This document shows positions 3,961 to 55,019 of a stretch of DNA of 64,000 bases, in pieces. Position 1 is the stretch's first letter. Each line of letters opens with the position of its first letter. Source of the DNA: Bolinopsis microptera (taxonomy: Eukaryota > Ctenophora > Tentaculata > Lobata > Bolinopsidae); contig NC_087083.1 in NCBI RefSeq assembly GCF_026151205.1, forward strand, positions 6,426,460-6,490,459. The letters run 5' to 3'. Under the pieces are notes generated by a model, which worked only from the letters and a program-made list of their open reading frames with translations, was not told the origin of the DNA and ran no database searches. Position numbers and translations under genes: made by a program.

Positions 3961-4012
3961 ACTAACGTGGTAGTTACTTCAGAAGCAGTACCAGAAGGTA
4001 TTTAGTAACCCT

Positions 4013-5686
4013 ATGAGTGCCGATATTGATGAATGTATGAAGAGCCAAGGATTACCTCAGGGACTGGATTCCGGATTCAACGAGCTAAGCTTCACAAGAA
4101 AAGATATCATTGAAGCATTAGGAGAACTGGATCCCTATTCGGCCGCACCTAATGGAGAGATTCCTGCTAGGATACTCACAGCCTGCAAAGAACAACTTGC
4201 AGACCCGCTAACACTCCTCTGGCAGGAATCGTTCAGCAGTGGGTATATACCAGCGGAATTAAAGACCCAATATATCACCCCTATCTATAAGAAGGGGGAC
4301 AGAACGGACCCAGCAAACTATAGACCAGTGTCTTTAACCTCACACATCATTAAGACATTCGAGCGTGTAATCAGAGAAAACCTGGTTCGTCATTTGGAAG
4401 AGAACATGATGATCAATACGAACCAGCATGGGTTCAGAAAAAAGAGGAGTTGCATGACGCAGCTTCTCAGTCACATCGAACAGATCTATAAATCACTGAA
4501 CAATGACGAAGAAGTTGATGTGATTTACCTCGACTTTGCCAAAGCTTTTGACAAGGTCGACCATGCAGTGCTGCTAGCCAAGCTTGGTCGATACGGAATT
4601 GGTGGTCAGGTTTTAAGGTGGATCAAAGAGTTTTTGCTAAACAGAAAACAAACAGTCGTTGTTGAAGGTCGCAAATCATCCTTCCAGCCAGTGGCAAGTG
4701 GGGTGCCACAAGGGACAGTCCTAGGACCGATCCTATTTATCCTGTACATCAATGATCTGTTGAACAGCATTAGCTATAGTAACGGATTCAGCTTTGCAGA
4801 CGACATAAAGCTGATTTGGGCTATCCGAGGAATGAGTAGTGTGGAGTTACTGCAAGATGATCTCAACATAGTCATCGAGTGGTCACGTGTTAACAACATG
4901 GAGCTACACGAACAGAAGTTTGAGGTTGTAAACTACCCCCTGAATGGATCAAAAGCTCTAAGAGAGCTCCCGTTCTACCCAGAGACTGTTGAGTATACTA
5001 CACCAAAAGGACACGCAATATCACCACAGGAAACTGTCAGAGACCTTGGAGTGTATGTTAGCAGCAGTAGGTCATGGGGTCCTCACATTGAGAAGACAGT
5101 TCAAGGAGCTAGAAAAATGGCGGCTTGGACATTGAGTGCCTTTAGAGACCGGTCACAAGTAGTCATGCTGACTTTATACAAAAGCATGGTTCGCTCCAAG
5201 CTAGAGTACTGCTGTCCAGTCTGGAACCCTACAAAAGTCACAGAGATACAAAAGCTGGAGACTGTACAGAGATCCTTTACTAGAAAGATATCTGGCTGCC
5301 GTGATCTCCAGTACTGGGACAGGCTGAAGAAGCTTAAGTTGATGTCCCTTCAGAGGCGGAGAGAGCGTTATTCTATTATTCATGTATGGAAAATTCTTTA
5401 TGAACATGCTCCGAACGATACGGGCTTCGAGTTCAAGTCTCATCAAAGGCATGGTATTAAGGCAGAGATCCCAGCCATGAACAAAAACGCACAGTTGTCG
5501 GTAAGAACAGATTACGACAACAGCTTTAGAGTTAGGGCAGCTCAGCTCTTCAACGTGCTCCCATCGGAGCTCCGGAGTATCACATTGCTAGACAGTTTCA
5601 AAGTTGGTCTAGGCAGATTTATGGAACAGTACCCAGAACACCACCGGTTCCGGGCTACACTCCGACAAACGATAACTCAATGCTGA
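4013..5686 (+). CDS. Non-LTR retrotransposon reverse transcriptase (ORF2 C-terminal part)
   Basis: This intact 557-codon frame encodes a LINE reverse transcriptase, which copies element RNA into DNA at a nicked target. Visible motifs are ITPIYKKGDRTDPANYRPVS (about residues 88-107), QHGFRKKRSC (138-147), motif A YLDFAKAFDKVDH with catalytic Asp about 174, VPQGTVLGPILF (231-242) and FADD (261-264), a Phe variant of the usual YADD. The downstream thumb and C-terminal region includes LGVYVSSS, YKSMVRSKLEYCCPVWNP and the end-domain YDNSFRVRAAQLFNVLP. No endonuclease precedes it, so the copy cannot transpose by itself, yet no stop or frameshift has accumulated. This suggests a young insertion. The start at 4013 is only the first ATG; the frame opens about 13 codons earlier. 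Confidence 0.9.
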   Translation: MSADIDECMKSQGLPQGLDSGFNELSFTRKDIIEALGELDPYSAAPNGEIPARILTACKEQLADPLTLLWQESFSSGYIPAELKTQYITPIYKKGDRTDPANYRPVSLTSHIIKTFERVIRENLVRHLEENMMINTNQHGFRKKRSCMTQLLSHIEQIYKSLNNDEEVDVIYLDFAKAFDKVDHAVLLAKLGRYGIGGQVLRWIKEFLLNRKQTVVVEGRKSSFQPVASGVPQGTVLGPILFILYINDLLNSISYSNGFSFADDIKLIWAIRGMSSVELLQDDLNIVIEWSRVNNMELHEQKFEVVNYPLNGSKALRELPFYPETVEYTTPKGHAISPQETVRDLGVYVSSSRSWGPHIEKTVQGARKMAAWTLSAFRDRSQVVMLTLYKSMVRSKLEYCCPVWNPTKVTEIQKLETVQRSFTRKISGCRDLQYWDRLKKLKLMSLQRRRERYSIIHVWKILYEHAPNDTGFEFKSHQRHGIKAEIPAMNKNAQLSVRTDYDNSFRVRAAQLFNVLPSELRSITLLDSFKVGLGRFMEQYPEHHRFRATLRQTITQC

Positions 5687-51746: not shown

Positions 51747-51892
51747 CTGAACATTGATAAATTATTATTTAGATGATTAGTTAAATAAATAATTCATAAA
51801 TGGACATTCTTTTGCTCATGATTCTGATTGTGAAGAATACAGATATGATATGATTGCCTAAGGCAAGTGATACTGCGAAATATTGATAGGTA

Positions 51893-51994
51893 TTACACAG
51901 GCCCTGAATGTCGCAGTATAATCTATGGGTTGTATTCCCTTGATTACACAGGCCCTGAATGTCGCAGTATAATCTATGGGCTGTATTCCCTTGA
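51893..51994 (+). repeat. Tandem duplication, 51-bp unit x2
   Basis: Two copies with one mismatch, beginning TTACACAGGCCCTGAATG, in non-coding DNA upstream of the linker exon. Confidence 0.9.
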
Positions 51995-52366
51995 TTGCAC
52001 TTGATTGTAATTTTTTTAAATATGCAATGATTTGTCGGGTTTTTGCAAAACTTCCTTTTTTGGAAAACTTCCTTTCTTATATCTCTTAGATAATCAATAA
52101 TTCTGTCCGATGGGGATATCTTTGAAGTGTTCTATTCAACTCAACAGGAAAACTAGTTGACAAAAGTGCAAAACTCTTGAAAATAATGGAGACACATTGA
52201 CGCACTGTCATGACTATTAACTTCTATATTTGGAATGAAATAAACACCGTGTTATTTGATAATGCAGAATTGCAAACAGCCTCACTCTCATTCACTTGGT
52301 CAAGTTTTTAACTTATATAAGGTGCGATATTGGGTTTTCTCTTCTCTACCGACAAAGATGTATTAA

Positions 52367-55014
52367 CCCATTAGGGACGACGAGTTTTAAAGTTTGCTGA
52401 TTTTGATGCCGTTTAACACACTAGGTCACTTTACAGCAAAAATGAGATATCCAAAAAAGCTAATCTGTATCTCGTTTACTTTATAAGATACAGCTATGGT
52501 CGCATACGACCCTCTCGTCCGGGTCGCAAACGACCCATCACGGTTTTTCGGCTTTAACTTCTGAAACAAAAACGTTAGGATAGAATAAAAACTGTAGCAT
52601 AAGTTAAAAACAAATGATCAATACTGTGTGACTCTAACTTTTTAGAAATAAAGAATTTGGGTCATTAACGACCCACTCGGCTCACTTGCTTATTACTGCA
52701 TATGTCCATGTAACTTCTTGAATTCAGCCTAAAACATGACATCATAAGTGCAAACTTGCCTCTCAGCAAGTGATAATCATCATAAACTGCGAAAAATCGG
52801 TTAAATTGGTCATTAGCGACCCACTAGGATCACAAAATTGATTAATTAAATATAATGTTGTGAAACTTTTACAAATATTAGTATAAAAACATGTTATATC
52901 TTGGTCATTACTCCTGTACGTTGATTTAACTTCTTAAATCGATCAACTGGGTCAATAACGACCCACTCGGAAGTTGAACCACGACATTAATTATCAGTAT
53001 CATGCCGTTCCACCATCAAGAAAGACACTCGTAGGTCTTAATTCCACGCAAACCACGGGTGGATGACCACTAGCCCTCATGAGATCTGGAGTCTCAAGGT
53101 GATCTGCAGATCACGTCACCCAATCACTGACGAATAATGAGCAGAATTGGATTGATAGGTAGGTGAGTTTATTAGCTGTTAGTACACGACCGTAATGTCG
53201 TGAGATAACAAACAACGTGCCTATCTTTTCCCGATTCCTAAAAAGTCCAAGAAGAACTATACAACTGCTGGATTCAGATTTCTGATGGCTGCATCTACTC
53301 ATTTCGCAGCCTCCTTTCTTTACTTCTTAGGGGCCGTTCACATATTACGTAATCACTTATTGGACAATTTTTACCCCCCGGCCCACCCCACTACATAGCT
53401 ATTATGTCAAAATTACACTAGCGTAATCATTTGGAAATCCCTCTCAGCCGATTACGTAATACTTGGTTTCGTTTTGAAAGCTGCCTCGTTGTTGCGGGGT
53501 TGTAACCCAAAACGGAGTAGTTGTCTGAGAGATTGCAGGTTGCAGCACCGCCAGCCAGATGGGGGGGGGGGGGGTGCTTTTTCCTTGTCCTTCTTCACAG
53601 AGCTGGTGATGTAGCCATCTGAATGCAGCAGTTGTTTAGTTATTCTCGTACTTTCTAGGAATGTCAAACAGATTGGCATGTTGGATTAGAATATGCAATT
53701 TGACCGCTCTTCTTTCAGTGTTTACCCAAGGTTACAGAAATATCTCGTATACTTCGTTCACGGTATTTTTCTTGAGTGACATGATCTGATCACCGTGGGA
53801 GCCTGGGTCTCAAGCGGTTGTAGCAGGTCGTTTACCAAGATTCGAAATTGACAAAAAAAGTAACAGAATCTAATAAGCAACAACAACAGTATGGCCATTA
53901 CCTAGCAAGTTAGGAACGAGGGCTGATCTCCTTTTCTTTTGCGACACGGCCACGGTCTTTTCGGTGCAGATTTCCACAAGCCCACGCACCATAGTCAGGA
54001 CGCAACTCCAGCATATGCAGTCGTGTTATTCTCGCAGCTTTTTGATGAGTGATGACTGCCCTTCAGTTGGCCCTGGATCTCAGGAGGGCTAGTTGTCAGC
54101 CACCGTGATTTGTGTGGAATTAAGACCTACGAGTGTCTTTCTTGATGGTGGAACAGCATGATAATTAATGACGTGGTTCAACTTCCGAGTGTGTCGTTAT
54201 TGACCCAGTTGATCGATTTAAGAAGTTAAATCAACGTACAGGAGTAATGACCAAGATATAGCATGTTTTTATACTAATATTTGTAAAAGTTTCACAACAT
54301 TGTATTTAATTTATCAATTTTGTGGTCCTAGTGGGTCGCTAATGACCCATTTAACCGTTTTTTTGCAGTTTATGATGATTATCACTTGCTGAGAGGCGAG
54401 TTTGCACTTATGATGTCATGTTTTAGGCTGAATTCAAGAAGTTACATGGACATATGCAGTAATAAGCAAGTGAGCCGAGTGGGTCGTTAATGACCCAAAT
54501 TCTTTATTTCTAAAAAGTTAGAGTCACACAGTATTGATCATTTGTTTTTAACTTATGCTACAGTTTTTATTCTATCCTAACGTTTTTGTTTCAGAAGTTA
54601 AAGCCGAAAAACCGTGATGGGTCGTTTGCGACCCGGACGATAGGGTCGTATGCGACCGCAGTTAGTAAACAGCGTCTAGCTCTGTTTGTGAACATTTGAT
54701 TATCACGGGCTTTTCATTTGTCTCAAGGAAATCGTTGCCCGCAACTATTTTGTTCTCAAAAAAATAAGCCTACATAAAGTTTAAATGTCCCAATCAAGGC
54801 AAGAAGTTAAGTGAAATATTTTCCAATTATGACGACTAATTAGTCTAATTATTTAATTGTTAGTGATTAATTGGGTCTCGACTGGAAAGTCAACTATGTA
54901 GCCCAATCAATTTTGAGCATATGTGCGAGAGATTCATGGCGTTTAGTATTTTGGTTTGTCCTCTATAGCCTCTAGAAAAGGTGAGTCGTAAACGACCCTA
55001 TCGTCCCTAATGGG
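52367..55014. mobile_element. piggyBac-like non-autonomous element with long inverted arms
   Basis: It is flanked on both sides by TTAA (52363-52366 and 55015-55018), the piggyBac target. The termini are perfect 14-bp inverted repeats CCCATTAGGGACGA. Inside, long arms (about 52480-53090 and about 54080-54660) are inverted copies of each other. Each carries four palindromic modules of the type GGGTCGTTAATGACCC or GGGTCGTTTGCGACCC, spaced 138-150 bp. The centre (53100-54060) has no frame over 100 codons and no recognisable transposase. It lies in what would be an upstream intron of the collagen-like gene. Confidence 0.8.
53561..53574 (+). repeat. Poly-G tract of 14
   Basis: A run of 14 G in the centre of the piggyBac-like element. 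Confidence 0.85.
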
Positions 55015-55019
55015 TTAAA

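Follow-up and report, generated by a model that had tools for sequence, protein, structure and literature searches.

A piggyBac-like fold-back element of Bolinopsis microptera with a two-sided ladder of palindromes that are probably transposase-binding sites

Introduction

In the piggyBac transposon of Trichoplusia ni, a dimer of the cysteine-rich domains (CRDs) of the transposase binds to one end, at a palindrome spanning bp 17-33, and bends the DNA (PMC7351741). The left end of piggyBat, from Myotis lucifugus, contains three units of a core motif and a palindrome, set 44 bp apart and present at that end only, and its CRD has a topology similar to that of C1-type domains (PMC11707139); in a preprint, the inner dimer of piggyBat is reported to serve synapsis (PMC13405395). 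Precedents for the role of extra transposase sites inside piggyBac ends conflict: a third CRD site about doubled integration by piggyBac (PMC7351741), whereas an internal left-end site restricts the activity of piggyBat (PMC11707139). Some piggyBac-derived MITEs have a conserved internal region, and the coral CMITEs are about 100 bp long; the parts of their description consulted mention no palindrome ladder (PMC2872659).

We analysed a 64-kb stretch of B. microptera DNA (the window), in which an earlier, sequence-only reading had pointed out a piggyBac-like foldback element with mirrored ladders of palindromes. Foldback elements such as Drosophila FB and Galileo have long inverted arms with internal repeats and belong to other superfamilies. 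The window element is fold-back in shape like these (589-bp arms in 2,656 bp), a descriptor of shape and not of superfamily; TTAA and the DDE_Tnp_1_7 domain place its family in piggyBac. In the literature searched, the coverage of which was incomplete and did not include Repbase, we found no description of such piggyBac palindrome ladders. The genome provides long natural arrays in which constraint has been measured on the sites as well as on their distances, and two palindrome specificities with a similar ruler.

Results

The window element and its ladder

We found that positions 52363-55018 of the window form a TTAA-to-TTAA element of 2,656 bp, a non-autonomous member of piggyBac. Its TTAA-flanked 14-bp termini are as first described: by sequence match, the left TTAA and terminal inverted repeat (TIR; CCCATTAGGGACGA, 52363-52380, plus strand) and the right TIR and TTAA (55001-55018, minus strand) are complementary at 18/18 nt, with the common sequence TTAACCCATTAGGGACGA. 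The TIR opens with CC, as the piggyBac superfamily requires, and departs at its fourth base (CCCA) from the stricter motif CC[C/T]T, as AmiPB4 likewise does (PMC2872659). The inverted arms, put at about 600 bp by the sequence-only reading, have a core of 499 nt at 98% (52498-52996/54159-54657); with two gaps, the alignment of the left arm (52498-53086, plus strand) with its inverted copy on the right (54076-54657, minus strand) reaches 589 nt at 96% complementarity. The arms stop short of the tips by 135 bp (left) and 361 bp (right).

We defined a rung as the 16-bp dyad GGGTCG-N4-CGACCC, allowing up to two mismatches. A palindrome scan of the 64-kb window yielded eleven rungs, every one within the element, against a chance expectation of 0.32 on average and 3 at most (100 dinucleotide shuffles of the window). 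Five rungs lie in the left arm region: TGGTCGCATACGACCC (rung 1, 52497-52512), GGGTCGCAAACGACCC (rung 2, 52521-52536), GGGTCATTAACGACCC (rung 3, 52659-52674), TGGTCATTAGCGACCC (rung 4, 52807-52822) and GGGTCAATAACGACCC (rung 5, 52949-52964). Five more occupy the right: GTGTCGTTATTGACCC (rung 6, 54191-54206), GGGTCGCTAATGACCC (rung 7, 54333-54348), GGGTCGTTAATGACCC (rung 8, 54481-54496), GGGTCGTTTGCGACCC (rung 9, 54619-54634) and GGGTCGTATGCGACCG (rung 10, 54643-54658). The eleventh, the tip rung (54983-54998), adjoins the right TIR at bp 17-32 from the right end, the position of the CRD-dimer site of piggyBac (PMC7351741). Counted from the tip without TTAA, rungs of the window copy (L001) start at 131, 155, 293, 441 and 583 on the left and at 17, 357, 381, 519, 667 and 809 on the right. 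The ladder itself was seen correctly before, as were its mirroring and its spacing of about 140 bp (138, 148 and 142 bp in both arms), and only the count of four palindromes per arm needs revision: there are five per arm plus the tip rung, eleven and not eight, the lower figure arising because the outermost two rungs of each arm are only 24 bp apart.

Like piggyBac of T. ni (LE35/RE63), the window family (family A) combines TTAA, a short TIR, a palindrome at about bp 17 of one end and asymmetric ends (PMC7351741), and like the left end of piggyBat it has repeated units of core motif and palindrome (PMC11707139). The earlier statement that ordinary piggyBac ends carry one short internal repeat does not hold in general, given the three units at the piggyBat left end (PMC11707139). 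TTAA, a short TIR and non-autonomy are shared with piggyBac-derived MITEs, including the coral CMITEs (PMC2872659). Family A differs from T. ni piggyBac in having five to six palindromes per end, against one per minimal end, and in placing the first left rung 131 bp from the tip; compared with piggyBat, its rungs number up to 11, occur at both ends and are spaced 24 to about 340 bp apart. We also take the sequence of the T. ni piggyBac palindrome to differ from that of family A.

The window copy contains no open reading frame (ORF) longer than 77 aa within the element, and no transposase, in the ORF list. Its inter-arm spacer (53087-54075) is indel-rich among copies and gave no blastn match (E up to 1e-3) to the autonomous copy L043. 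The spacer also contains a second inverted repeat (53213-53279/53617-53683, 81%) on either side of a GGGGCCGTTCACATATTACGTAAT stretch, which may be an earlier insertion nested in the element. Elsewhere in the window, a 51-bp unit occurs in two tandem copies (96%) at 51892-52000, just outside the element, and a 570-aa open frame at 3974-5686 resembles, by eye, a non-LTR retrotransposon reverse transcriptase.

An autonomous partner with a CRD-like exon

The sequence-only reading had proposed a genome search for other copies and an autonomous partner, and both were found: 18 long fold-back copies and three complete autonomous elements (L043, L045 and L046; L044, with only one end in the stretch fetched, is excluded from this set). 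All three autonomous elements (5.1-6.0 kb) share the TIR of the fold-back element, begin and end with TTAA and contain 10 rungs. Rungs of L043 start at 17, 356, 380, 516, 670 and 811 on the right and at 131, 155, 292 and 452 on the left, distances close to those of the fold-back element; L046 has its innermost right rung at 968, not 811. Two rungs of the autonomous right arm derive from a 154-bp tandem duplication. The identity between the two arms is only 0.64-0.67 in all three copies.

An uninterrupted DDE_Tnp_1_7 frame of 678-681 aa is present at four loci (L009-L012), three of which correspond to the complete elements L043, L045 and L046. The transposase ORF of L043 matches PF13843 with 269.9 bits and, among PDB chains, piggyBat (9c0f, E 3.9e-25) and piggyBac (6x67, E 7.7e-14). 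The gene is on the minus strand, such that the right ladder lies upstream of it. Past the family-A transposase stop, beyond an apparent short intron, a further frame shows the cysteine pattern RCGLCKSKTIYECSKCAVKLYSNCFAAFH (C-x2-C-x7-C-x2-C-x7-C-x4-H). This frame matches Pfam C1_2 at E 0.0055, below the cut-off, and gave no CRD match among PDB sequences; it weakly resembles the C1-like topology of the piggyBat CRD (PMC11707139). From its cysteine pattern, we regard it as a CRD-like exon of the family-A transposase, which splicing would join to the main frame. Membership of piggyBac, as originally proposed, is supported by TTAA, the TIR, an autonomous partner with DDE_Tnp_1_7, the putative CRD-like exon and the position of the tip rung.

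Copies, derivatives and MITEs in the genome

In the 264.65-Mb genome, the TIR with up to two mismatches matched 408 times (204+204), compared with 3 matches (1+2) for a control. Longer end patterns identified 125 ends of the left type, 123 of the right type (with the 16-bp tip rung) and 106 of the MITE type, the last corresponding to about 53 elements. Pairing the first 100 listed left and first 100 listed right ends gave 84 elements, with 32/200 ends remaining single. All 84 were in left-right arrangement and 71 span 2.63-2.72 kb, although these pairs are not 84 independent tests because the copies have common descent. Exact family-A palindromes occur at 337 genome sites (control, 3); of the first 50 listed, 48 have a family TIR no more than 1 kb away.

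The set of 18 long fold-back copies consists of the 8 best matches, from 40 best candidates scored, and ten pieces of 2.6-4.3 kb bounded by TIRs; it includes neither partial pieces nor the shortened derivatives L042 and L051. Every one of the 18 has TTAA at both ends and 11 rungs, and the TIR is exact at 35/36 tips. Arm identity is 0.93-0.98 in 17 of them and 0.825 in L050, where an insertion splits the right ladder. Two kinds of copy had been named at the outset as telling against the element's description. Copies without TTAA were absent among the 18 long fold-back and three complete autonomous elements; copies short of rungs do exist, namely 241-bp MITEs and the derivatives L051 (5 rungs) and L042 (6 rungs), whereas all 18 long copies keep the ladder.

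The 241-bp relatives are MITEs in that they are short and numerous and have the TIR and target duplication of the autonomous family. Their TIR is identical to that of family A, and each end has a single 18-bp rung. They consist of two inverted copies of about 120 bp, both ends being right-type; these copies are 80-81% like the fold-back right end (73-81% when the autonomous right end is included). That about 53 such elements have spread, each end bearing a single rung, suggests that short elements can do without the ladder. We rejected one candidate autonomous element, the 6.3-kb TIR-bounded piece L052 (275-6575), which proved to be a 241-bp MITE interrupted by a nested insertion. That insertion, of about 6 kb, has its own terminal inverted repeats, beginning CACCCTACGCGCG.

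Rungs and the distances between them are conserved

Among the 18 fold-back copies, 13/176 columns were variable within rungs, compared with 313/1491 elsewhere in the ends (Fisher p 4.5e-6); as the copies share ancestry, this and the other p-values given here overstate independence. Across the comparisons among copies, the rungs are three- to fourfold less variable than their surroundings. Similarly, when the left arm of L043 was compared with its right arm, rungs were 94% identical and the rest 62%, against a floor of 57% with the non-rung letters shuffled. Between fold-back and autonomous right ends the figures were 96% and 70%, and 0/5000 random placements scored as high; for the left ends, the weakest of the four comparisons, they were 93% and 77%, with 71/5000 placements as high. 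From these alignments, the rungs appear to be under selection.

We next consider length, in the 14 of the 18 copies that have no large insertion (L050, L053, L054 and L056, over 2.8 kb, being left out). Non-rung substitutions were alike in the ends and the inter-arm spacer (0.0256 vs 0.0273). In contrast, the ends (1,430 bp) had 6 indel events and the spacer (1,228 bp) had 47; with low-complexity runs masked, the counts were 3 in 1,198 bp and 32 in 1,100 bp (p 6e-8). No indel fell inside a rung. Inter-rung sequence thus changes its letters and seldom its length, with about tenfold fewer indels than the spacer. The tip rung is at bp 17-32 in 21/21 copies (18 fold-back, 3 autonomous). Spacing is not invariant: rung 5 is shifted by 9 bp in 3/18 (L057, L059 and L061), and the right ladder of L050 is interrupted by an insertion. 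The distances between rungs appear to be kept by selection, and their low indel rate, the result we least expected, points to a protein assembly with a geometry of its own.

The near-perfect mirror is probably secondary

Alignment pairs the left end of the fold-back element with that of the autonomous element (76%), and likewise the outermost part of its right end with the autonomous right end (80%); the inner right arm aligns, in reverse, to the autonomous left arm (72%). Because of this last match, we propose that an inverted copy of the left ladder probably took the place of the inner right ladder. The two-sided ladder would then be the older feature and the near-perfect mirror secondary, two already similar ladders having probably become mirror copies.

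Sister families have palindromes of their own

Compared at the DNA level, the genome's 26 PF13843 matches form four groups. Family B has eleven loci, three of them overlapping others, and its transposase is 34% identical to that of family A over 404 aa. Its ends are TTAACCCATATAATACC and TTAACCCATATTCTTCC and its palindrome is GTACTTTTAAAAGTAC, the exact dyad occurring at 197 genome sites (control, 0). Rungs start at 17, 359, 393, 409, 441 and 473 on the right and at 134, 184, 216, 248 and 280 on the left, positions that are identical in the two elements read at both ends; left rungs 134 and 280 are degenerate, with 2 and 3 mismatches, respectively. Families A and B agree within 3 bp at the tip rung (17/17), the first inner right rung (356/359) and the first left rung (131/134), a match that comes from a post-hoc comparison of two families, and their spacings differ past the first inner rungs. 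The DNA between these matching rungs is near the shuffle floor (right, 0.594 vs 0.582; left, 0.613 vs 0.576; sd 0.030). The family-B ORF ends in frame with its own CRD-like cysteine pattern, recognised by reading and missed by the pattern scan, and the CRD-like regions of the two families can be aligned.

In family D (L029), TGGGTTGAATCAACCCA occurs three times in a 65-bp repeat, and degenerate copies are found near both tips. Family C (L021 and L022) encodes a transposase with a cysteine pattern at its end; a scan of 3 kb revealed no repeated palindrome, and TTAA+CCC was absent from its block boundaries. Three families in one genome (A, B and D) thus have three unrelated palindromes, which favours recognition by each family's own transposase over recognition by one host protein. 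Separately, a tandem array at C1:887552-890001 contains 37 of the genome's 62 exact family-D palindromes, mostly at 65-bp spacing; it is apparently a piggyBac subterminal unit expanded into a satellite.

Discussion

Judged from sequence comparison, the window element, a non-autonomous piggyBac, is probably mobilised in trans, and its rungs are likely to serve as CRD-dimer sites of the family's own transposase in a spaced docking array. The autonomous elements (5.1-6.0 kb), which have its TIR and its ladder, would supply the transposase in trans; each rung would bind a dimer of its C-terminal CRDs; and rung 11, at bp 17-32 of the right end, would by analogy with piggyBac be the canonical CRD site of the synaptic and catalytic complex. 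The remaining rungs would dock extra transposase dimers, such that the array could help to assemble or regulate the transpososome over a long element; across 2.7-6 kb, its effect might be either to aid synapsis through avidity or to restrain it. The earlier suggestion that the palindromes are multiple transposase sites gains support from the conservation of rungs and spacing and from the tip rung at the CRD-site position. We further suggest, more tentatively, a large and metrically fixed transpososome with up to 11 CRD-dimer sites, in which the outer geometry outlived turnover of the palindrome while sites and CRD specificity co-evolved.

Given that the internal left-end site of piggyBat, in an end with three units, restricts activity (PMC11707139), the array could instead be a brake: inner rungs would titrate transposase or repress its promoter, lowering transposition. 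Two further points speak for a brake: the right ladder is upstream of the transposase gene in the autonomous element, and the MITEs, whose ends bear one rung each, rose to about 53 copies. We nonetheless consider this rather unlikely. The window copy, with no ORF above 77 aa, has no gene to regulate, and fold-back copies still keep both rungs and spacing; in addition, assembly geometry explains the low indel rate more easily than titration does. For the choice between avidity and restraint within a docking array, the long arrays, the two palindrome specificities and the ladder-free MITE, an internal control, make a ready comparison set.

It is highly improbable that the ladder is a passive relic with no function today, left behind when a unit close to the TIR was duplicated in tandem. 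Rung-bearing tandem duplications do exist, of 154 bp in the autonomous right arm and 65 bp in family D, as does the 37-site array at C1:887552-890001, but a relic would not readily account for the three- to fourfold fewer substitutions in rungs, for indels being roughly tenfold rarer in the ends than in the spacer, or for the persistence of rungs in autonomous arms that are otherwise close to the shuffle floor.

Lower again in probability is a functional fold-back hairpin, acting through dsRNA and siRNAs from transcribed arms or through cruciform DNA. The 589-nt arms, 96% complementary, and the arm identity of 0.93-0.98 in 17/18 copies would suit such a hairpin, yet the autonomous family keeps rungs and spacing at an arm identity of 0.64-0.67 (3/3 copies), and rungs are less variable than the equally paired arm sequence around them. 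Because autonomous copies retain 10 rungs though their arms are nearly unalignable between rungs, it is the ladder, and not the hairpin, that is conserved. The strong secondary structure and dsRNA envisaged by the sequence-only reading are therefore possible for fold-back copies and do not describe the conserved feature, as the autonomous ladder lacks long complementary arms. Least probable of all are sites for a host DNA-binding protein, for instance in chromatin insulation or nuclear targeting: any dimeric protein could use arrays of 16-bp dyads, but the unrelated palindromes of families A, B and D, the tip rung in the transposase register and the proximity of 48 of the first 50 listed exact family-A sites (within 1 kb) to family TIRs disfavour the host factor once considered.

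If the rungs are indeed CRD-dimer sites of each family's transposase, then families A and B possibly provide orthogonal pairs of CRD and site. The two families possibly also have a common N-terminal repeat domain. In family A, the transposase is preceded by a 308-aa ORF that contains a 13-aa tandem repeat (L043:3518-4441, minus strand), and a search of this ORF against Pfam gave nothing above the cut-off; in family B, a single ORF (L013:1162-4065, minus strand) contains a different 13-aa repeat N-terminal to the transposase.
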